Origin: a virus
DNA: 21,143 nucleotides
Strand: one strand, 5' to 3'
Virus record (IMG/VR): IMGVR_UViG_3300020172_002281
Span: 1-21,143 of that record
The notes beneath the pieces were generated by a model, which was not told where the DNA came from, did no database searches, and saw nothing but the letters and a program-made list of their open reading frames with translations. Positions within the stretch are counted from its first letter, which is position 1, and each line of letters begins with the position of its first letter. Positions 2,616 to 18,626 of this stretch are shown here, one piece after another. The position numbers and the translations under genes were made by a program.

Positions 2616-3575
2616 ATGTCAGACAATAATCAAATGAACGACGAAGATTACCTGAGAAGACATCTCGAGGATCTCGAGCAGAACAAAAGGTCACAGGAGG
2701 TGGAACCAGTTGTGCATAGTGATATTCCCTTCGCTGCAAAAGAGAGTTATGCAGAAAACACAAAGGTGAGTGATCTACAGTTCTTTAACTTCGACATAAA
2801 AGAGTTGCCATGTGGTCAATTCTATCCACAGGGTTCCGTTATTATGATAAGACCTGCTCAAGTAAGAGAGATCCAGGCATATTCTATGGTGGATGATAAT
2901 AACTTCTACGACATCGTAGAAAAGATGAACGATATGTTACAATCGTGTATTCGTATAAAATATTCTGATGGTAAGATAGGATCATATCTTGATATCAAGG
3001 ATCAAGATAGACTTTACCTTATATTTACCATAAGGGAACTTACGTTTCAACAGGGTAACTCATTGAATGTGAATGTTAGATGTAATTGTGGTCAAGAACT
3101 TCAGTTAGAATTGACACGTAAAAACTTTAGTTTCCATGAAATTGATGAGAAACTTTTGAAGTTTTATAACAAAAATACTGGATCATATAAATTTACTACC
3201 ATTAATGGTAAAACTTTTGAATTGACACCACCTAACATTGGTCTTCAGAAAGCTTTCACTGATTATATAATCAAAGAAAATAATGATAAGAAGGCACCTA
3301 ACCTTGCGTTTTTAAAGATAATACCTTTTATGCTCTCTGGTCGATCAAGTATAACGTATGAAGGTATAAAAGCCAAATTGAAGGATTTTGAGGATATGGA
3401 TGAAGTTTCTTTTCAGTTTCTAAACGCGGCTGTCGGTAAGATGACATTTGGTATCAAAGAATTGAAGAAAGATTGTGTGTGTGGTGAGGAGATCCACGCA
3501 GATATGCAGTTTCCCAACGGAGCGTCAGGTATTTTCGTTATTCATGATGCCTTTGAAGCATATATTAAAGAATAA
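2616..3575 (+). CDS. Baseplate hub protein, T4 gp26-like (T4_baseplate family)
   Basis: The protein is 319 aa. A polar, probably disordered N-terminus (1-50) precedes a domain that opens with an ELPCGQFYP segment. Two Cys-x-Cys pairs, RCNCGQE (156/158) and DCVCGEE (287/289), could together bind one zinc ion. The pattern YLDIKDQDRLYLIFTIRELTFQ followed by a CxCG strand is what I recall from T4 gp26-type baseplate proteins of marine and Bacteroidetes myoviruses. gp26 takes part in building the hub of the tail baseplate. It is followed after 4 nt by a short acidic gene, as expected for a gp26/gp51-type assembly pair. Zinc binding is inferred, and the family assignment comes from memory of patterns rather than an alignment. 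Confidence 0.6.
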   Translation: MSDNNQMNDEDYLRRHLEDLEQNKRSQEVEPVVHSDIPFAAKESYAENTKVSDLQFFNFDIKELPCGQFYPQGSVIMIRPAQVREIQAYSMVDDNNFYDIVEKMNDMLQSCIRIKYSDGKIGSYLDIKDQDRLYLIFTIRELTFQQGNSLNVNVRCNCGQELQLELTRKNFSFHEIDEKLLKFYNKNTGSYKFTTINGKTFELTPPNIGLQKAFTDYIIKENNDKKAPNLAFLKIIPFMLSGRSSITYEGIKAKLKDFEDMDEVSFQFLNAAVGKMTFGIKELKKDCVCGEEIHADMQFPNGASGIFVIHDAFEAYIKE

Positions 3576-3579
3576 ATTG

Positions 3580-3792
3580 ATGTTACAGAAACACTTTCAT
3601 ACTCAGGAAGAGTCTATGGATCGGTGGCCGTTTTGGATGTTTGAGGAAAACATAAAGATAGTTAATGAGATAGCAGAGGAGGAGGAAAAACAAAAGAAAC
3701 AAGATGAACAAGGGCAGAGCGCTAGTATGCCAGACACAAACTCGATGATGCGTAATGCTTCGAATATGACAAATAATATTCCTAAGTTTTAA
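3580..3792 (+). CDS. Small acidic protein, candidate baseplate assembly factor (gp51-like position)
   Basis: A 70-aa protein starts at ATG 3580, 4 nt after the gp26-like stop and in the +1 frame. An earlier in-frame Met at 3475 would lie inside the gp26-like gene and give unlikely Cys/Arg-rich sequence, so the later start is preferred. The sequence has a conserved-looking RWPFWMFEENIK segment, then a charged helix (EEEEKQKK) and a Ser/Asn/Met-rich tail. Short proteins with an aromatic 'mPyye'-like core often follow the gp26-type gene as tail or hub assembly chaperones. The role here rests mainly on position. Translation is probably coupled to the upstream gene. A terminator follows directly. 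Confidence 0.6.
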   Translation: MLQKHFHTQEESMDRWPFWMFEENIKIVNEIAEEEEKQKKQDEQGQSASMPDTNSMMRNASNMTNNIPKF

Positions 3793-3793
3793 T

Positions 3794-3824
3794 AAAAACC
3801 CATTCAATTTGAATGGGTTTTTTG
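3794..3824 (+). terminator. Terminator after gp26/gp51-like genes
   Basis: The inverted repeat AACCCATTCAA/TTGAATGGGTT, almost without a loop, is followed by T6 GTTT just past the stop at 3792. Confidence 0.85.
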
Positions 3825-3843
3825 TTTGTATAAATTACTTAAT

Positions 3844-3877
3844 AAAAAAAAGAGACCATTTGGTCTCTTTTTTTTTT
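3844..3877 (-). terminator. Terminator after sheath gene (bidirectional)
   Basis: The stem AGAGACCA/TGGTCTCT, with long A tracts on the left and T tracts on the right, lies 15 nt past the leftward sheath stop. Read leftward it ends in a U-run. Confidence 0.8.
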
Positions 3878-3891
3878 AGTTTTATGTCTTA

Positions 3892-6800
3892 TTATAAGAA
3901 TCCACCTGCCGCAATAGCTCCAGTTCTTAATATAGTCACATTGTTGACAATGATACCCATACCTTTTATTGGTTCTACATAAGTATCCAATACACCTATT
4001 TGGTTATCGATAATTTCTGATGTGTTGTTCTCTTCATCCATTTTGTTGAAGTAGTTGTAGAGACCATTTCTTCCTACGTAAGTTTCACAAATAACGTCAG
4101 CTCTGAGTTTGATTTCTGCTCTGATGTCTGATGTGTTGAATCTCCATTGGAAGTCTAACAACATTCTCGATAATTCTCTTTCGAGTTCAATAAGCACCTC
4201 TCTTACGTGAATGAAAGATAATGCCGATTTGTAAAGTGTTTGTGCAGTGTTTTCAGTTTCGATAATGTGTCCTCTGTTTCTTTTGAAAACGAGTGGATTT
4301 ATCTGTGCACCATTCAACCATTCGATGTCTGTTGGGTTGAAGTCAGCTTCGAGTCCGTTTATACCGATTATTCTACCATTTGTCACACCCGCTGCGATTG
4401 TCCATGGTGTTATACCACCCACGTTTGATGTGTGTTTTCTCATATATGTCGTTGCAACGAATGATGCAGGTGGGAAATCTAACGGTCTACCGTTATCGTT
4501 CACTTTTACATATGGTAAGAAGTATCCAGTACATGTTGTTCCAGCTCCATCTCCGAATGAGTATAAGAATGCAGGGTTACTTGTAGGATCTGCTCCTTTT
4601 GCGATATATTCTGCTTGAAGAACTCCTTCACCGTTCACGAATGATGGTGAGCTTGAGTTTTTGAACGCTTTTATTGAAGGCATATTGATGAATCCGAATG
4701 CATCAAGTCTTTCTCCACATATATCAACTAATTGTTGTTTAGATCTCTCTGTAAGACCATTACCAAATGAGTCAATCAAATATCTGAAGTCAATTGCTTC
4801 TTTATTTGTTACTGCTTTGAACAATGGTGTTCCTTTTGCAACAACATTTAGTATTTGGTTTTGTCTAACTTCTGTTCCGTCAGGCATAGATGCTTGTCTT
4901 ACTCTGAAACCTTTCAATGAAATGGCTTTATAAGTTTCTACATAGTCTTCTACCTTCTTATATCTCATAGTCTGGTATGCTGCACCTGTATAGATTTTCT
5001 TAATTTTAGCATCACATGTAATCTCAGCAAGTGCTGTATTTCCAGCGTATTGTGTTTTATTCACAACTCTTGTTAACTTTCTAGGTGCTTCACCGAATGC
5101 GAGTGTAGTTTCGTCGTATTCTGCCTCTAAGAAGTCTCCTTTTATAATTTCAGTATATCTTGCAGCGTCTACAATTATTTTGTTTGGTTGCTCTACGTAT
5201 CCTGTAGGAATTTCAATTTCTATAGTTTGTTTGAAATTAGAGTCTGCTGAATTTACGTATATCTTACTATTCGACTTAACTCCTTTTGCAGGTGATTCAT
5301 AGTCCCATAGTTCTGTGTCGAATTCAACATTCAGTTTATCACCATCAAATGACATCGTTAGGTTGTGAACTTTGTCGTTAATATCGTATATTCTGTCTAC
5401 TGAAATAAGTTTTTCGTATGTAGTGTTCTCATTTACTTGGTATACGTGATCATCTGAAGATGATCCACCAAACAAAGTATTGTTCTGTCTACCTGATACG
5501 ATTGTGAAAGTTCCTGAGTTCAATGATGAACCTGGTATTTGTATAACATCGTTTAGGTTGAAATCTGGATCTTTTGATTTACTATTACTAGTGAATACGA
5601 TGTAATCATTTCCTGCAAAACTGGATGTTACTCCTGTTCCACTGAATCCAGAGATAGTAGAACTTAATTCTCCAGGAACAAAAGTTACACTATATGTTGC
5701 AAATACATTCAAACTTGCGTTATACCTTATCCTATTGTTGTAGAAGAAGTCACCTGAGTTTATCTGACCGTCGTAGAACTTGTTATATAATTCAGAGTAT
5801 TTAGCCACACTTCCTGTTAGACCACTCGTAATAAGTGTGGAATCAGAAGTAACAAGTCTTTTAGTTCCAAGTATTTGCTCGTTGTCTGTTGAATAGAATA
5901 CTAAGAATTCGTTGTTTATTATGTTGTATAGTTTTGAATTTGTAGTACCATCATAACCATTACTTCCGTATAATCCTGTATCAATTACGAATGATTTTTC
6001 TTTTGTTTCAGATGTTTCAATTGACTCTATTCTTGCATTTTCGAGTGAAAATTTGGCACCGTTTGGAGTTAATAACATTGTCATTTTTGTCCTGTTTGTG
6101 CTATCTAATAAACCTACAAGTCTGTTGAACATTTTGAATCTTCTATATGTTTCATAGTCTTTTTTGTCTGGTGTTTTATTAGTACCTTTGAAAGTAATTC
6201 TAATTTTACCACTAAATTCTCCTTGACCAACAAGTCCTTGCCATGGTAAATTCCATCCCCATCCGTTTGGATCCCATGCAAAGTTAGATGATACGTTTAT
6301 CCCTTCTACAACGTAATCGGTTCCAGGTGACATATGTTTGAACTTCGGCGCTACAGCATTACTATATTCTACGGTAACGTTGGTGTGATTAGGTACTACT
6401 GCGAATCCTTGTTGTAGAATTGAGTATGTTGCGAATCCTAATACGACGTCTGTTGCTGCAGGGGTTGGTGCTTCTTCAGATTTACTACTTGTTAGAACTT
6501 TGAAGTTACCAGTTGAATCCATAACGTATGCAGATGTCATAATCTGAACTTTTGAACTAGTTGCGAAACTTAGTGAAGATACTGAGAAAGTTACCGTCTG
6601 TGGTGTCAATGTTAATAGATTGTCTCCAACGACAGCGTATGCGTTAGGATCTATTGTGTATGCAACCGACATAGTTCCAACTCCAATTGATGCTGATGAT
6701 GTTGCGGTAAGACGTACGTTCCTTACGAACTCTTCTGAATAGAAACTTGTTCTAGTTGCGTTTACTTGTACACCACTTGTAGCAGGAATGTTACCGGCTG

Positions 6801-7914
6801 CAAATGCGTGAGATTTAGAATCGATTGTCATATCACCTGCGGATAATGAAGCAACGTTTCCAACTAATGCAGTAACGTTTCCTGGTAAATCTAAAGGATT
6901 TGCAGCGAATTCAACCTCACTCATTATTGTTTCGCTGTATGAAAGGAAATCTATTGATTTTTTGTTTGTTCCAGCGATTGTTTGTCCGATTATATCGAGT
7001 TTACCATTATAGTAGTCTTCTTCTACAATCTCACTATTGTATGCACAGAATATACCGGTTTTGTCAGTATCTCTGTTGATTGTAGTCTCAATGAAAACAT
7101 TTCTTCCGTTTGCATCTCTAAAGTAAGGAATCAATGAAAGTCCTTCGTAGTATGCTAAAGCAGTAACGTTTCTATCACTTGCGAAGTTTCTTACCTCTTC
7201 TTTTCTTAATCCACTTGCGTTGAAGTATGCACTCCATCTTGGATCAATTGATAGTGATTTGTAGTCTGACCAGTCACCCGCCACAATTACTACATCAACC
7301 ATATAATCAGATGCGTAGTCATTTGCGTTTACGTATGGTGGTAATTTCTCTACGGAACCATACCACTCAATAAGTGTTCTGTCGAATCCAGATACCTGAG
7401 AGTTGAACACGAAAACGGTTGCATATCTGTCAGATAAGTTTGTTAAACTGAATGCTCTATCATCATAACCACTATTGTTTTTAGTCAGGTTTATGAATGC
7501 ATCAGTATCTCTTTTCCAGAATCCTGTTGTGTTGTGGAATCTTCTGTAAGCACCGAGTCTTTCGATGTCATTAGATGAGTTAGATGATGTGGATATAGAT
7601 TTGTATTCGATAGTGTCTAATGCGTCGTCTGTTACGAGTAGGTTCATTGCGAATACCGGTGCAGATTCTAGCATTTTGGATACGGTTCTGTGAAAGAACG
7701 ATCCTTTTCTCTCTAATCCTCTGTCTAAAGTTCCGAAAATCGACTCTAAATCGTTGACCGATGTTATCCTCACTGGAGTGTTAACCGGTCCTTTTTTGGA
7801 GACACCGATTACGAGGTTGGTAAGTCCCTCTACGACAGGAGTTGCTATGACCGAGTTGTCATACTCTTCCAAGAAGATACCAGGCCTCTTGTATTTTCCA
7901 ATTTGAATTGCCAT
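3892..7914 (-). CDS. Tail sheath protein (T4 gp18-like), double length
   Basis: This 1340-aa contractile-tail sheath protein polymerises around the tail tube and contracts at injection. The N-terminus (RPGIFLEEYD, then a VEGLTNLVIGVSKKGP strand and an RITSVNDLESIFG motif) is typical of sheath proteins. The C-terminal part, from about residue 1035, has the conserved hydrolase-resistant core: SKQQLVDICGERLDAFGFIN, TPWTIAAGV, GRIIGINGLEADFNP, and helices HVREVLIELERELSRMLLDF. T4 gp18 is 659 aa. The extra length lies between about 340 and 1010 and is Ser/Thr/Val-rich, beta-type sequence, probably one or more surface domains inserted in the loop region. It has its own TATA box and is followed, not overlapped, by a terminator. 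No frame disruption is visible. Confidence 0.9.
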   Translation of the reverse strand: MAIQIGKYKRPGIFLEEYDNSVIATPVVEGLTNLVIGVSKKGPVNTPVRITSVNDLESIFGTLDRGLERKGSFFHRTVSKMLESAPVFAMNLLVTDDALDTIEYKSISTSSNSSNDIERLGAYRRFHNTTGFWKRDTDAFINLTKNNSGYDDRAFSLTNLSDRYATVFVFNSQVSGFDRTLIEWYGSVEKLPPYVNANDYASDYMVDVVIVAGDWSDYKSLSIDPRWSAYFNASGLRKEEVRNFASDRNVTALAYYEGLSLIPYFRDANGRNVFIETTINRDTDKTGIFCAYNSEIVEEDYYNGKLDIIGQTIAGTNKKSIDFLSYSETIMSEVEFAANPLDLPGNVTALVGNVASLSAGDMTIDSKSHAFAAGNIPATSGVQVNATRTSFYSEEFVRNVRLTATSSASIGVGTMSVAYTIDPNAYAVVGDNLLTLTPQTVTFSVSSLSFATSSKVQIMTSAYVMDSTGNFKVLTSSKSEEAPTPAATDVVLGFATYSILQQGFAVVPNHTNVTVEYSNAVAPKFKHMSPGTDYVVEGINVSSNFAWDPNGWGWNLPWQGLVGQGEFSGKIRITFKGTNKTPDKKDYETYRRFKMFNRLVGLLDSTNRTKMTMLLTPNGAKFSLENARIESIETSETKEKSFVIDTGLYGSNGYDGTTNSKLYNIINNEFLVFYSTDNEQILGTKRLVTSDSTLITSGLTGSVAKYSELYNKFYDGQINSGDFFYNNRIRYNASLNVFATYSVTFVPGELSSTISGFSGTGVTSSFAGNDYIVFTSNSKSKDPDFNLNDVIQIPGSSLNSGTFTIVSGRQNNTLFGGSSSDDHVYQVNENTTYEKLISVDRIYDINDKVHNLTMSFDGDKLNVEFDTELWDYESPAKGVKSNSKIYVNSADSNFKQTIEIEIPTGYVEQPNKIIVDAARYTEIIKGDFLEAEYDETTLAFGEAPRKLTRVVNKTQYAGNTALAEITCDAKIKKIYTGAAYQTMRYKKVEDYVETYKAISLKGFRVRQASMPDGTEVRQNQILNVVAKGTPLFKAVTNKEAIDFRYLIDSFGNGLTERSKQQLVDICGERLDAFGFINMPSIKAFKNSSSPSFVNGEGVLQAEYIAKGADPTSNPAFLYSFGDGAGTTCTGYFLPYVKVNDNGRPLDFPPASFVATTYMRKHTSNVGGITPWTIAAGVTNGRIIGINGLEADFNPTDIEWLNGAQINPLVFKRNRGHIIETENTAQTLYKSALSFIHVREVLIELERELSRMLLDFQWRFNTSDIRAEIKLRADVICETYVGRNGLYNYFNKMDEENNTSEIIDNQIGVLDTYVEPIKGMGIIVNNVTILRTGAIAAGGFL

Positions 7915-13108: not shown

Positions 13109-13321
13109 ATGGAAAAGGTTATTAGAGTTTGTAGAAAGCCATTTTGTAAAGCACATTTCGAAGTTGATAAGATTGATTCAGAAGAAATTTCCTATCCTGA
13201 ATTTTGTCCAAAGTGTGTAGGTAATGAGAGAAACGTTTCCTGGGAAGATAAAAAATATGAAGGGGAAAGGTGGGATGGAACTCCACATGAATTTTCCTAT
13301 AAAATAAAGAAGTATTACTGA
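13109..13321 (+). CDS. Small zinc-ribbon-like protein
   Basis: The 70-aa product carries C-x4-C-x2-H near the N-terminus (VCRKPFCKAHF) and a C-x2-C knuckle (FCPKCVG), enough ligands for one zinc ion. The remainder is charged and aromatic (WEDKKYEGERWDG). The function is unknown; small zinc proteins of this kind in phages often contact RNA polymerase or nucleic acids, but nothing here proves that. Its TGA shares one base with the ATG of the HAD-like gene, so the two are translationally coupled. Confidence 0.72.
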   Translation: MEKVIRVCRKPFCKAHFEVDKIDSEEISYPEFCPKCVGNERNVSWEDKKYEGERWDGTPHEFSYKIKKYY

Positions 13322-14166
13322 TGAATGCACATTTCTTCGATATTGATACAATTATAAAGGATGGTGCAATGATTTGGATCGTTTCTCGTTCAAAACCATC
13401 TGAGTGTATTCTTAAGGTTAGTCAATCTGATTACAACCTTATGAAGAAGGGTATTTTTAGATCACATGGAAATTTGATACGATTTGGTGGTGTTGATTAT
13501 TACCTACCTGATAATATAATGACTGATCTTGTAGTCCGTTGTAAAAAAGGTAATGTTGATACTTCTGATTTGGCATTTTCGATGCGAGAGTTTATGGATC
13601 CTGAGTTGGTTGATACCTCAGTTAAGTCAATAGATCTTGGTGTGATGAGACATCTTAATAACACCGAGGATGATGTATACATCATCTGTTCAAGGAAGAT
13701 AAAGAATTCATATGAGGTTCTTATACGTAAGTTAGAAGATAAATTAGAAGACTTTGGTATAAAACCAGACTATTATTATGTTGGTGAAACTCTTTATGAT
13801 CGTGATGAGGATGAGGTGTCTTTTGATAAAGTAAGACTGTTGGTACAACATTTAGTTGGTTTGAAGACAGAGGGTCGCAATTTTACAGATGATGTGGTTA
13901 AGAGATATGATAAGATATATTTTTATGATGAGGATGATAGTGCGACAAAACTCGCGTGTTCGATATCTTCTATACTTACATTACTTGTTCAGAATAGTGC
14001 GGCGAGTGCAAAGGATTCGATTAGGAGTGTGGTAAAGGATAATTCACCAGTTCTTGTTGTGAATTCGGTTACTCCGAATTTGGCAAATCGTTTTGTAACA
14101 AAGGAAATTAAACTTGAATATTCTTCTCTTATAAAGTCTTTTGAGTCATATAGGTATTTAGGTTAG
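13321..14166 (+). CDS. HAD-like protein (probable degenerate phosphatase fold)
   Basis: The protein is 281 aa. The order of motifs suggests a haloacid dehalogenase-type fold. FFDIDT at 5-10 gives the D-x-D nucleophile pair (D7, D9). YIICSRK at about 120-126 gives the Ser/Thr of motif II. A Lys near 170 could serve as motif III. IYFYDEDDSA at about 199-208 gives an acidic motif IV. The similarity is weaker than for the HAD gene at 19161, and I cannot tell whether it is active. The C-terminal about 70 residues are Ser/Val-rich and unrecognised. It is coupled to the zinc-ribbon gene (1-nt overlap) and converges on the small terminase gene with a 4-nt stop-codon overlap. Confidence 0.65.
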   Translation: MNAHFFDIDTIIKDGAMIWIVSRSKPSECILKVSQSDYNLMKKGIFRSHGNLIRFGGVDYYLPDNIMTDLVVRCKKGNVDTSDLAFSMREFMDPELVDTSVKSIDLGVMRHLNNTEDDVYIICSRKIKNSYEVLIRKLEDKLEDFGIKPDYYYVGETLYDRDEDEVSFDKVRLLVQHLVGLKTEGRNFTDDVVKRYDKIYFYDEDDSATKLACSISSILTLLVQNSAASAKDSIRSVVKDNSPVLVVNSVTPNLANRFVTKEIKLEYSSLIKSFESYRYLG

Positions 14167-14795
14167 TCTTTTTTACCTCTATCCTCTTCTCTTTTCATCA
14201 TTGCGGTTTTTATCAATTCATTCATATCGCGACTATTCATAATTTGTCCATCAGTTTTTTCCGGATTTTCATCCTCGAATTTATTTTGGTTTGCGTTCTC
14301 TATTTCACCACCACCCATATCTTTTCTTAGGTTCTTCCAGAATTCCTCTAATTTTGTTTTCTGACCTGATAGAAACTTTGCGTTCTCTCTTATTTGTCCA
14401 ACTGTTTGGTTTAAAACTTCATGCATTCTGGCCGAACCATCACCATTGTCAACTTGTCTCATCTGTGTTAGGAAGTTCTTTCTGGTCATTCTTGTTAAGA
14501 AGAGTGCCTCTGCATATACCATAGCATCTTCTTTCATTTTGTTCTTTATGTATGGGTGTTCCTTCAATCTAGGTACGTCACCTATGTACAAATCAACTAA
14601 TGATTCTAATACCTCCATTGCTTGTTGTGTAGAGACGGTTAAATCCGAGTCATAGTCATAAATTTCAATCTCTCCTAAATCCGGAAGGTCTTCTGGTCTT
14701 GCTAGGTGCGTTGAGAAGTCATATTCGGTTCCTTCTGATTGTATCTGTTCGAACTCATCGTGTATTCTATTTCTTTCGTTGTTCTGCTTCGACAT
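14163..14795 (-). CDS. Probable terminase small subunit (T4 gp16-like)
   Basis: The protein is 210 aa from the ATG at complement 14793-14795. The longer start at 14834 lies within the shared promoter region and was rejected. It has an acidic N-terminal region (DLPDLGEIEIYDYDSD, compare the DLPGIDGEEIKVYEP segment of T4 gp16 from memory), a central helical part (LESLVDLYIGDVPRLKEH; AMVYAEALFLTRMTRKNF), then SARMHEVLNQTVGQIRENAKF and a helix EEFWKNLRKDMGG, ending in a polar tail. That matches the gp16 plan of central coiled-coil helices with disordered ends. gp16 rings recognise replicated DNA and stimulate the gp17 packaging motor. Divergent placement 53 nt from the large subunit gene supports the call. 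Unusually, it is on the opposite strand rather than upstream in the same operon. Confidence 0.65.
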   Translation of the reverse strand: MSKQNNERNRIHDEFEQIQSEGTEYDFSTHLARPEDLPDLGEIEIYDYDSDLTVSTQQAMEVLESLVDLYIGDVPRLKEHPYIKNKMKEDAMVYAEALFLTRMTRKNFLTQMRQVDNGDGSARMHEVLNQTVGQIRENAKFLSGQKTKLEEFWKNLRKDMGGGEIENANQNKFEDENPEKTDGQIMNSRDMNELIKTAMMKREEDRGKKD

Positions 14796-14812
14796 CTGTA
14801 GGGATGTTTTTT

Positions 14813-14825
14813 CGATATATATAAA
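14813..14825. promoter_or_regulatory. Shared divergent TATA box between small and large terminase
   Basis: The self-complementary TATATATA core reads TATATATAAA rightward (23 nt before the TerL ATG) and TTTATATATATCGA leftward (18 nt before the small terminase ATG). One site could fire in both directions and match the dose of the two terminase subunits. Confidence 0.5.
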
Positions 14826-14848
14826 GCAAAACACGTTTCTCCTGTTAT

Positions 14849-15394
14849 ATGGCCGAAAAAAAGAAAGAAGAAGTTCGTCAGATGGTATTCACCACAAAAA
14901 TCGTGGATGAATCAACTGAGAAAATAAATGATGGTATACAACTAAAAAAGTTTCAGAATCCTTGGTTAAAGAGTGAGGTTGGCTTGAAGAGGTCTGGTGT
15001 AGTTTTCCGACTTTCTGCGGAAGAACAACAGGAATACATACGTTGTGCGGTTGATATACATTATTTCACTGAAAAGTATTGTAAGACTAAAAGAGAGGAT
15101 GGATCCGTAGGTTCTATACTTCTTAGGGACTACCAGAGTGAGATTCTCGATAACTTTATGAACAACAGATTCAACATACTAATGGCTAGTAGGCAGGTGG
15201 GTAAGTGCTTTTATTTCAACACTTTATGTAGTATTGAGATTGATGGTATTGAAATTGAGATGAGAGTTGGAAGTCTTTATTATTATATGCTTTCTAAGAT
15301 TAGGAAGTTGACTTTGTTGGAGAAGATAAAGATAAAATTGTACGATATTTTATTCCATTTTGAAACCGTTTCCCGAGTTGAGGGGAAGCCATAA
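14849..15394 (+). CDS. Terminase large subunit, N-terminal fragment fused to split-intein N-fragment
   Basis: The protein is 181 aa. Residues 1-119 are the start of a T4 gp17-type packaging ATPase: LLRDYQSEILDNFMNNRFN leads into the P-loop ASRQVGK, ending on the Walker A lysine K119. The next residue, C120, starts an intein. CFYFNTLCSIEIDGIEIEM is intein block A, with Cys1 as the splicing nucleophile. About 40 further helical residues (KLTLLEKIKIKLYDIL) follow before a stop at 15394. Alone this piece cannot bind ATP. It must be joined in trans to the C-terminal piece encoded from 16392, whose intein half ends HN before the Walker A Thr. The product would be about 714 aa, against 610 for T4 gp17. 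It has its own TATA box and no Shine-Dalgarno sequence. Confidence 0.9.
   Translation: MAEKKKEEVRQMVFTTKIVDESTEKINDGIQLKKFQNPWLKSEVGLKRSGVVFRLSAEEQQEYIRCAVDIHYFTEKYCKTKREDGSVGSILLRDYQSEILDNFMNNRFNILMASRQVGKCFYFNTLCSIEIDGIEIEMRVGSLYYYMLSKIRKLTLLEKIKIKLYDILFHFETVSRVEGKP
15206..15391 (+). other. Intein N-fragment (IntN, 62 aa)
   Basis: It begins at TGC (Cys1) directly after the AAG of the P-loop lysine and ends at the TAA at 15392. It contains block A only. Block B lies on the other fragment, so the split is earlier than the common split position between the endonuclease-flanking blocks. Confidence 0.88.
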
Positions 15395-15397
15395 AAA

Positions 15398-15410
15398 TTA
15401 TATATATTAA
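15398..15410 (+). promoter_or_regulatory. TTATATATATTAA box before endonuclease gene
   Basis: This box lies in the 29-nt gap between the IntN stop and the endonuclease ATG, about 13 nt before it. It could give the endonuclease its own transcript. Confidence 0.4.
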
Positions 15411-15423
15411 AAAAATAAATTTT

Positions 15424-16416
15424 ATGGTTATTAATGATAATAAAGAATCGGTGACGTGTAGAATATGTGGTGAGCAATGTAAACGAATTTATGGTAGACA
15501 TCTTAAACATTCACATAATAATATGTCCACTGATGAGTATAAGAGGTTATTTCCAGGTGCACCAATAACAACACTATCTGATAAAGAGAAAACGAGTAAG
15601 AATTCTGGTTTACATATGAAGGACGAAAAGTATAAAAAGATGTTCTCTGAGATGTTTAAGGGTGATAAAAATCCAAATCATATTTCTAATACTACTGACG
15701 AGCAGAGAAGAAGTAGAAGTCCATTTTCAAAATCATTTGTTGGATATTATATGATTGAGGATAAAGAGGAACATATAAGTAAATTTGTCAAAGATGCAAT
15801 AAAGGATCGAGTATCTGATACTACTTTACGATATTATCTCAATCGTGGTTACACAGTAGAAGTTGCCAAACAGATGTTAAGTGAGAGACAAACTACCTTT
15901 TCATTAGAGAAGTGTATTGAGAAGTATGGTGATGAAATAGGTCATAAACGTTGGTTAGATAGACAGAATAAGTGGCAGACATCATTATTAGAAAATGGAA
16001 ACATTAAGTGTGGATTTTCTAAGATTTCACAGGAATTATTTTTTGAGATACTTAAAAGATATAATACCGAAGATATATCTGAGGTTTATTATGCGACAAA
16101 AAATAAAGAGTATTACATATCTATAAAAGATGTTGGTTTTTTTGCATATGATTTTACTGATTTGAAGAGAAAATTGATTATTGAATATAACGGTGATTTA
16201 TATCATGCAAATCCTGATATATATGAATCAACAGATTATCCACATCCTTATTATAAAGAAGATGGTCCTACTGCTGGTGAAATATGGAGTAGAGATAATA
16301 ATAAGATAGATGTTGCACGAGAAAAGGGATTTGATGTTCTGACTATATGGGATTCTGAATATAAGTCAGATAAAAATAAAACAATTAATAAGTGTTTAGA
16401 TTTTTTGGGAATATAG
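15424..16416 (+). CDS. Free-standing Vsr-like (EDxHD/I-Bth0305I-type) homing endonuclease inside fractured terL
   Basis: The protein is 330 aa. The N-terminus has a Ros/MucR-like zinc finger (C12, C15, then H26/H29 and H31; RHLKHSH followed by DEYKRLFPGAP). Residues 66-101 look like a NUMOD-type DNA-contact region with GDKNPNH. A KCIEKYGDEIGHKRWLDRQ segment (163-181) is typical of large phage homing endonucleases. The catalytic domain near the C-terminus shows AYDF (D243) and IEYNGDLYHANP (E254, D258, H261), the Vsr/PD-(D/E)xK-like EDxHD site. Such enzymes cut the uninterrupted allele of their host gene and spread by recombination. It lies between the two intein halves of terL, so mobility would carry the split-intein cassette into intact terminase genes. 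Its end overlaps the earliest possible start of the next gene by 25 nt. Confidence 0.85.
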   Translation: MVINDNKESVTCRICGEQCKRIYGRHLKHSHNNMSTDEYKRLFPGAPITTLSDKEKTSKNSGLHMKDEKYKKMFSEMFKGDKNPNHISNTTDEQRRSRSPFSKSFVGYYMIEDKEEHISKFVKDAIKDRVSDTTLRYYLNRGYTVEVAKQMLSERQTTFSLEKCIEKYGDEIGHKRWLDRQNKWQTSLLENGNIKCGFSKISQELFFEILKRYNTEDISEVYYATKNKEYYISIKDVGFFAYDFTDLKRKLIIEYNGDLYHANPDIYESTDYPHPYYKEDGPTAGEIWSRDNNKIDVAREKGFDVLTIWDSEYKSDKNKTINKCLDFLGI

Positions 16417-18626
16417 TTATATGTTTTTTGCGGGTATTGATTGGTGTTATTGAGTCTTATGAATATCGTAAGTTGGAACTCGATCAGGATGATGCCTCTA
16501 AAAAGATACTTAACTCTCTGTCAGTTATGAATATGCGAGTTAAAACGGATACTGGTTATGAACCGGTTACTGATATTCATATTACACAGCCATATAATCA
16601 TTACATAGTAAATACTTCCGATTATTCATTGTGTTGTGCTGACAATCACATATTATTTGATGATTTATTTGGTGAAGTTTTTGTTAGTGATTTGGGTGTA
16701 GGTGATTTTATACAAACTGAGTCAGGACCACAGTGTGTTGTTAGTATACGAAGGGAATTTGGTAAATCCTCTATGTTTGATATGACGGTAGATCATCCAA
16801 ACCATAGATTTTATACTAATGGTATTCTTTCACACAATACAGTATCTTCTGCAATATTCATATTACATACAATACTTTTCAACAATGATAAGAACTGTAT
16901 GATTGTTGCCAACAAAGGAGACACTGCCATCGAGATCGTTGATAAAGTTAAATCAATATACACACTTCTGCCATTCTTTCTTAAACCTGGTATAAAGACT
17001 TGGAACCAGAAGTCACTCACCTTCGATAATGGTTGTAGAATAAAAACTTCTGCTAGGTCAAAAACACCTGCGATTGGTTTTACCATTGACGTTCTCTACC
17101 TCGATGAGTTTGCACACATTCCGTCCAATATTATAGAACCATACTATACTGCGGCATTCCCGACCGTTTCTGCGGTTCAGAATTCAAAGATAATCATAAC
17201 GTCTACGCCGAATGGTATGAACCTTTTTCATAAGTTGTTGACTGATGCTGAAAGACCTGATGGTGATCCGTTGAAGAATAACTATAAGCCGATGCGTGTT
17301 TATTGGTATCAGGTACCGGGTAGGTTTGTTACTTATCTAAGATTGAATCCACATATGCTTCTTCGACATGGTGTTACAAATGATGATATATTCCGTGTTT
17401 TTAATGAACGTTTTGGTGAAATTACTAATGTTAAAATGGAGTTTAACATCGACTTACAGAAGGATGTTATACACATTTTCAACAATGATAAATGTTCTGA
17501 TGAGATGGTTAGGTCAATGTCATTCATTGATTCGAGAGGTTATGAGACTTCTATACTTTCTATGGCAGAGGTTACGACATGGAAAGATGAGGCTGTAAAA
17601 GATATTGGTGGTGAAGATGCGTTCAATCAGGAATATGGACTCCGTTTCATAAACTCGAGTAAATCTTTACTCAATGAAGCCATAATAGATGAGTTACTTA
17701 AATCTAAGAGAAACTACGTACACAGTGAGTTGGATGAGTTCTCTCGACTTAAGTTCTCTTATGATGAGTTGAAATGGATAGATGATGATGATGTTTATAT
17801 TCCAATGAAGCGTAAGGATTATAAAATTGTTGTCTCTGTTGATATATCTGAGGGACTTGGTCAGGATTATTCCGTTATAAACATATTCCGTGTATCTGAG
17901 AAGTCACGTGAAGTGATTGATGTACAGAAGGCTATGTATAAGTCGGTTGTGGATTTCTTTCGACTTGAGCAAATAGGTATATTTAGAAACAATTTTGTAT
18001 CTGTGAAACAATTGGCAGAGGTTTTATACTTACTTGTTTTTGAATACTTCAATCCGGATAATGTCAAAGTAGTTCTCGAACTTAACAACTATGGTAATAC
18101 CTTACTGGCAGAGATGCCACACGTTTTTGATGGTAACAACAATTATGGATCTTCTGTTTTTGTAAGGTATAAACACCGAGCCGATGCAACAGAGGAGAGA
18201 GTTGGACTTAAAGTAGGTGAGAACAAAAATCTTTTAGTTAAGGACTACCAGGATCTAATGTATTCAAAGTCTTTTGTCATTACTAATGAGGATAACATAC
18301 GAGAGATTACGACTTTTGTCAAACACATAACTATTGCTGGTAACATAAGATATGCTGCCGATGTTGGTCATGATGATACTGTTATGACTATTGTTAATGC
18401 ATCCTCTATATTTTCTAAAAACGAGTTTCGTGAGATGATTGAGGAGTGGAGTAAGATGTTCAGTCCAAAAGAATTTATGGATTATGTGAATGAAGAGCTT
18501 AAAAGATTGGATTTCGTTGAGGGTGTTGATTATGGACAGGTTCTACGTGCACGTAAGATGAATAGACCGAAGAATAATATTTGGAATAACGATAGTAATA
18601 TAAACTGGTTTGGGACGAAGAACTAA
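16392..18626 (+). CDS. Split-intein C-fragment fused to terminase large subunit C-terminal part
   Basis: Intein blocks come first. Block B is LCCADNHILFDD with VSDLGVGDFI. Blocks F/G are DMTVDHPNHRFYTNGILSHN, ending at 16838. The extein resumes with T (codon 16839) and SSAIFILHTILF, completing Walker A. Then come Walker B LYLDEF (Asp/Glu codons at 17103/17106), the coupling motif IITSTPNG, and the RNase H-like nuclease: VSVDISEGLGQDY (Asp codon 17841), VVLELNNYGN, and DVGHDDTVM (18360-18383). This is the motor and headful nuclease that packages DNA through the portal. The start is uncertain: GTG 16392 (A-rich leader, overlaps the endonuclease), TTG 16428 or 16437, or ATG 16527 (giving a 104-aa IntC). 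Upstream in-frame residues IESYEYRKLELD look intein-derived, so an early start is preferred. An extra segment of about 100 aa sits between the ATPase and nuclease parts compared with T4. Confidence 0.88.
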   Translation: MFRFFGNIVICFLRVLIGVIESYEYRKLELDQDDASKKILNSLSVMNMRVKTDTGYEPVTDIHITQPYNHYIVNTSDYSLCCADNHILFDDLFGEVFVSDLGVGDFIQTESGPQCVVSIRREFGKSSMFDMTVDHPNHRFYTNGILSHNTVSSAIFILHTILFNNDKNCMIVANKGDTAIEIVDKVKSIYTLLPFFLKPGIKTWNQKSLTFDNGCRIKTSARSKTPAIGFTIDVLYLDEFAHIPSNIIEPYYTAAFPTVSAVQNSKIIITSTPNGMNLFHKLLTDAERPDGDPLKNNYKPMRVYWYQVPGRFVTYLRLNPHMLLRHGVTNDDIFRVFNERFGEITNVKMEFNIDLQKDVIHIFNNDKCSDEMVRSMSFIDSRGYETSILSMAEVTTWKDEAVKDIGGEDAFNQEYGLRFINSSKSLLNEAIIDELLKSKRNYVHSELDEFSRLKFSYDELKWIDDDDVYIPMKRKDYKIVVSVDISEGLGQDYSVINIFRVSEKSREVIDVQKAMYKSVVDFFRLEQIGIFRNNFVSVKQLAEVLYLLVFEYFNPDNVKVVLELNNYGNTLLAEMPHVFDGNNNYGSSVFVRYKHRADATEERVGLKVGENKNLLVKDYQDLMYSKSFVITNEDNIREITTFVKHITIAGNIRYAADVGHDDTVMTIVNASSIFSKNEFREMIEEWSKMFSPKEFMDYVNEELKRLDFVEGVDYGQVLRARKMNRPKNNIWNNDSNINWFGTKN
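16527..16838 (+). other. Intein C-fragment core (IntC)
   Basis: From the internal ATG this is 104 residues: block B (His41 of C-A-D-N-H), block F with NHRFYTNG, and the terminal SHN whose Asn cyclises. Thr follows as the +1 nucleophile. The Thr usually found in block B (T-x-x-H) is Ala here. Confidence 0.85.

Follow-up and report, generated by a model that had tools for sequence, protein, structure and literature searches.

The gene for the large terminase (TerL) is fractured in the 21-kb metagenome window examined here (the whole stretch of DNA analysed, 21,143 nucleotides), and its halves are very probably rejoined by split-intein protein trans-splicing, with the interrupting cassette probably spread by homing that is driven by a homing endonuclease gene (HEG) lying between them. 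ORF analysis places the locus at 14849-18626, as in the initial annotation, with three genes arranged head to tail on the forward strand. The N-half ORF (14849..15394, 181 aa) encodes the TerL N-extein (14849..15205, 119 aa), which ends with the P-loop residues ASRQVGK and runs directly into an intein-N fragment (IntN; 15206..15391, 62 aa) made up of Cys1, block A and a helical tail; with a slash marking the junction, it reads ...NILMASRQVGK/CFYFNTLCSIEIDG...EGKP and stops at 15392-15394. The free-standing HEG follows (15424..16416, 330 aa). The C-half ORF (16392..18626, 744 aa, GTG start) opens with the intein-C fragment (IntC; 16392..16838, 149 aa), consisting of an N-terminal helix, block B with His86, block F and block G, and resumes at the P-loop Thr as the TerL C-extein (16839..18626, 595 aa; coding 16839-18623, then the stop codon), its sequence being VFRFFGN...TNGILSHN/TVSSAIF.... 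The 5' end of this ORF overlaps the 3' end of the HEG by 25 bases; its GTG start is supported by an in-frame TAA directly upstream and by the ATG or GTG that relatives show at the corresponding alignment position. The 'TATA box' of the initial annotation corresponds to an AT-rich run at 15398-15420, a putative element read from the sequence. That annotation had also described an insertion in the Walker A motif, with RQVGK leading into Cys1 and the intein closing with SHN before the P-loop Thr, and a joined product of about 714 aa; each of these points was confirmed, as the exteins add up to 119 + 595 = 714 aa and joining them would restore GK/T. Since the three ORFs occupy three different frames, readthrough is unable to join the halves.

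The C-extein matches Terminase_6N in Pfam (E 4.7e-14) as well as PHROG terminase families, and comparison with the uninterrupted TerL of a related contig, L006, gave identities of 98% for the N-extein and 97.5% for the C-extein. For the intein, a profile built on IntC found VidaL (E 5e-12), gp41-1 (3e-10) and also CatC in the PDB; the AlphaFold model of IntC is confident (pLDDT 88.8), and Foldseek again returned VidaL as its best match (E 1.2e-8, rmsd 1.1 A), with other inteins ranking next. The Pfam intein profile scored the window IntC at E 0.004, below the cut-off, and an NCBIfam search gave no matches. The short IntN was assigned from Cys1, from alignment and from continuous relatives, with no database match behind it. 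It corresponds to the first part of the continuous inteins of L172 and L179, and comparison with these one-piece inteins places the split between two helices, at about intein residue 50-60. The window carries the class 1 residues Cys1, His86, His148-Asn149 and Thr+1; among aligned relatives His86 is invariant, the terminal Asn is kept in 14 of 15 and the penultimate His in 13 of 15, and the intein C-terminus is non-canonical in LR756501 and LR756500 (NLN and SSQ). The proposed intein nature and split state of the two fragments are thus upheld by their relation to the Hint fold in sequence and structure, by the key residues of a class 1 split intein and by their location on two separate polypeptides. 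No consistent pattern was seen when charge complementarity between IntN and IntC was examined.

The gene between the halves had been called Vsr-like, and structure bears this out: while sequence comparison of the HEG with the PDB yielded nothing convincing, its AlphaFold model (pLDDT 84) was matched by Foldseek to I-Bth0305I (3r3p; probability 1.00, weak E of 0.027) and to Vsr (1vsr; probability 0.96, weak E of 0.083). It is probably a homing endonuclease of the Vsr/EDxHD type, as predicted from this fold, with the nuclease in its C-terminal part. Its N-terminal part resembles a zinc-finger region in Pfam below threshold, the two Pfam matches of the protein, ROS_MUCR and DUF559, both being sub-threshold. 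Residues D243, E254, G257 and H261 are invariant in 27 HEGs and are candidate active-site residues.

The fracture is not peculiar to the window. It recurs in L002, L003, L005, L007, L018, L024, L034, L038, L058, L084, L094 and L098, and in the independent contigs L002, L005, L007, L018, L038, L058, L084 and many more all three genes are arranged as in the window, which is far beyond chance. A survey with the IntC profile added further loci, with both halves present as separate ORFs in 68 of the 78 so found (some contigs repeat), 55 of them with a HEG between the halves and 13 without; the same TerL occurs with no intein at 71 loci, again with some contigs repeating. Four states of the gap can be distinguished: a forward-strand HEG of the window type; a version of it whose nuclease end is different (L005, L007); a homing endonuclease of about 575 aa that is unrelated and lies on the reverse strand (L003, L024); and no HEG at all (the 13 loci above, plus L094). 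As the HEG is of three kinds or absent, the fracture outlives its HEG, and in L154 an IntN tail that resembles a HEG C-terminus is likely, from its sequence, to be a deletion scar. LR756501, a 735-kb phage and the largest known at the time of its report in 2020, shares the fracture too; 12.4 kb separates its halves (L100:17866-18411 and 3227-5494, minus strand), an interval that holds about a dozen genes, some of them on the opposite strand. In LR756500 the terL halves flank a related HEG. In another contig (L034:6520-9365) the TerL halves are about 2.8 kb apart with no HEG and with other phage genes between, including a relative of the window ORF at 13321-14166.

These relatives bear directly on two other explanations of the locus. 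A group I or II RNA intron carrying a HEG might interrupt a continuous intein-containing terL and be removed by RNA splicing before translation; phage introns are known to carry HEGs of such a kind (PMC12350094), and both the N-half stop and the HEG lie between the halves. This is nevertheless very improbable, as the C-half retains a start codon of its own, the gaps of HEG-less relatives (about -34 to 285 nt, some below 100 nt) are mostly too small for an intron, and in LR756501 genes on both strands fill the 12.4 kb between the halves. Membership in the group I and group II introns was rejected in its own right, as no match to known intron RNA models in Rfam was obtained even at a relaxed threshold. 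Neither RNA splicing nor readthrough can account for a series whose gaps range from about -34 nt to 12.4 kb, and the only mechanism that would fit every case is protein trans-splicing. The joining of two loci by faulty assembly or binning comes to mind because the window is a metagenome contig known without read data, but it can be practically discounted: the order, the split points and the HEG are the same across samples in many contigs whose HEGs are 55-96% identical, so that recurrence in independent contigs excludes it, and the cultured phage Atu_ph07 is itself annotated with two terminase genes.

A decayed intein is a further candidate, in which the halves no longer splice and packaging relies on another terminase or on the unspliced fragments. 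In its favour, some fractured relatives carry truncated TerL paralogs (L101:855-2027(-), L028:5052-5867 and L098:5035-5991); these, however, lack the Walker A Lys (GIT, GIS, GYS). The initial annotation had named a continuous terL elsewhere in the genome as evidence against its reading, and none was found in the one fractured relative searched whole, a 597-kb contig with the two halves and no other TerL, whose completeness is unproven as no terminal repeat was found; the window's own genome, of which the window is a fragment, could in principle hold a second terL. The window and nearly all relatives retain the catalytic residues. Between fractured copies dN/dS was about 0.04-0.45 for IntN, with about 0.04-0.2 in comparable pairs, and 0.06-0.43 for IntC, setting aside a single saturated outlier pair whose IntN types are dissimilar; it is also well below 1 in the exteins. 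Judged by these ratios both intein halves are under purifying selection, which would not be expected of fragments without function. Decay is accordingly very unlikely.

Under trans-splicing, the N-extein-IntN and IntC-C-extein polypeptides would be translated separately and brought together by their intein parts. Once reassembled, the class 1 intein would act through attack by Cys1, transfer to Thr+1 and cyclisation of Asn149, aided by the penultimate His, and so leave an unbroken 714-aa terminase with Walker A GK/T intact. The HEG probably cuts intein-less terL at the insertion site, and repair would copy IntN, HEG and IntC together as one cassette. We infer the splicing chemistry, the cutting by the HEG and the dependence of packaging on splicing from these features.

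The mobility of the cassette can be followed in close relatives. Between the window and L018 the exteins share 74-75% nucleotide identity, compared with 95-96% for IntN, the HEG region and IntC. L006 is an intein-less near-twin of the window that is without exactly the IntN-HEG-IntC cassette; the flanks of the two are mostly 92-100% identical, with a few blocks at 87-90% and one 60-nt block at 80% located directly before the insertion. Over the last 45 nt before the intein the window is matched by L003 at 45/45 and by L018 at 44/45 positions, but by L006 at only 34/45, whereas in the preceding 45 nt it matches L006 at 45/45. This tract of about 45 nt is, on its sequence, the footprint expected of homing with co-conversion, and these comparisons indicate that the cassette was recently transferred between phages in that manner. 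At the sequence level, the window/L006 pair and its footprint thus speak for a split intein and its HEG homing together as one unit. The pieces are also shuffled, since IntN of the window and of L003 are 98% identical and their IntC only 62%.

Each ingredient is already known on its own: fractured genes, split inteins of TerL, and P-loop TerL inteins. The fractured genes of Dassa et al. 2009 reportedly bear split inteins on their broken ends with free-standing Vsr-like HEGs between, and the window shows the same arrangement, as had been proposed: a host gene in two pieces, broken at a split intein, with a Vsr-like HEG between them. It differs from those cases in the gene (TerL), in the site (Walker A GK/T) and in the position of the split, which lies between two extra helices in the early part of the intein; its family further documents near-twins that have no intein, a footprint of homing and descendants that lack the HEG. 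AceL-TerL and GOS-TerL are likewise naturally split TerL inteins with a short IntN and a long IntC, atypically split with an IntN of 25 and 37 aa and a +1 Cys (PMC11766414, PMC13014065); the window has an IntN of 62 aa (50-62 in aligned relatives), an IntC of 149 aa and a +1 Thr, and its membership in the AceL/GOS-TerL group was rejected on the published figures (IntN 25-37 aa, +1 Cys). VidaL (PDB 6vgv), the closest solved structure to the window IntC, is split at a different position, after strand beta-2, with an IntN of 16 aa (PMC13014065). The mycobacteriophage TerL1-a intein is a continuous P-loop TerL intein (PMC5050341) and shares the GK/T insertion point with the window, as do inteins of Ackermannviridae (Klebsiella phage Magnus, Serratia phage phiMAM1), whose sequence is related to that of the window; all of these are single polypeptides with no fracture and no HEG between halves. 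MIJ3, also a jumbo phage with an essential gene fractured and a HEG between, has a split PolB intein with an HNH HEG between the genes and a split between blocks N4 and F (PMC6892783), so that gene, intein and HEG class differ and its split falls later in the intein.

The split position, the breadth across phages and the evolutionary series appear to be new. None of the papers searched, Dassa et al. 2009 and supplements aside, reported this combination of features, this split position, the +1 Thr, such a range of gap states or the evidence for homing; the word 'intein' is absent from the main text of the paper on 634-735 kb huge phages (PMC7162821) and from that of the Atu_ph07 paper. Here an essential motor protein seems to come into being only when two gene products are joined at its ATP site. 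Taken together, the relatives make up a natural series (no intein, continuous intein, fractured with a HEG, fractured without a HEG, halves far apart), so that how fractured genes arise and what becomes of them can be tested directly. TerL is a standard marker for phage trees, and unrecognised halves may therefore distort them; the inteins of this family may also serve as tools. A broader reading, somewhat favoured by the data, is that trans-spliced TerL is widespread and long-lived in huge phages, entering as a homing cassette whose HEGs are later swapped or lost and whose halves drift apart (12 kb in the 735-kb phage, three genes over the 440-kb genome of SCTP-2), which would leave packaging dependent on splicing and possibly subject to a control of timing.

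For experiments, two phages are available in culture, Atu_ph07 and SCTP-2. Agrobacterium phage Atu_ph07 has adjacent genes (L185:3609-3980 and 3992-5800), both annotated as terminase large subunit and separated by an 11-nt gap with no HEG; the first extein ends with GRQLGK, followed by Ser1, and the sequence resumes as ...SHN/TTVAAAY, so that its TerL looks to be split by an intein in like manner. In Salicola phage SCTP-2, the candidate TerL genes are L198:860-1252(-), L186:3980-4873(+) and L199:1497-3623(-), located near 429, 256 and 216 kb of the ~440-kb genome. Read from sequence, TerL in this phage appears to be encoded in three pieces far apart, which two split inteins would join, the third piece also carrying a continuous intein. 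Elsewhere, a second, continuous intein is seen in the TerL nuclease domain of L019:7551-8638 (GxDD/C...), and in the C-half ORF of L163 such a nuclease-domain continuous intein occurs together with the split P-loop intein.

The Bacteroidetes setting that had been suggested for the locus held up, and it places the window among relatives of the huge phages. Close uninterrupted terminases occur in 634- and 642-kb phage genomes, whose clade is predicted to replicate in Bacteroidetes (PMC7162821), and a scan of GTDB genomes gave a single relative, on a Bacteroidales MAG contig. Within the window itself, a conserved gene of 223 aa at 14163-14834 (-), divergent from terL in many relatives, possibly encodes the small terminase subunit, though this is a guess. 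An unusually long tail sheath protein of 1340 aa is encoded at 3892-7914 (-), with the PHROG tail sheath match located in its C-terminal part.
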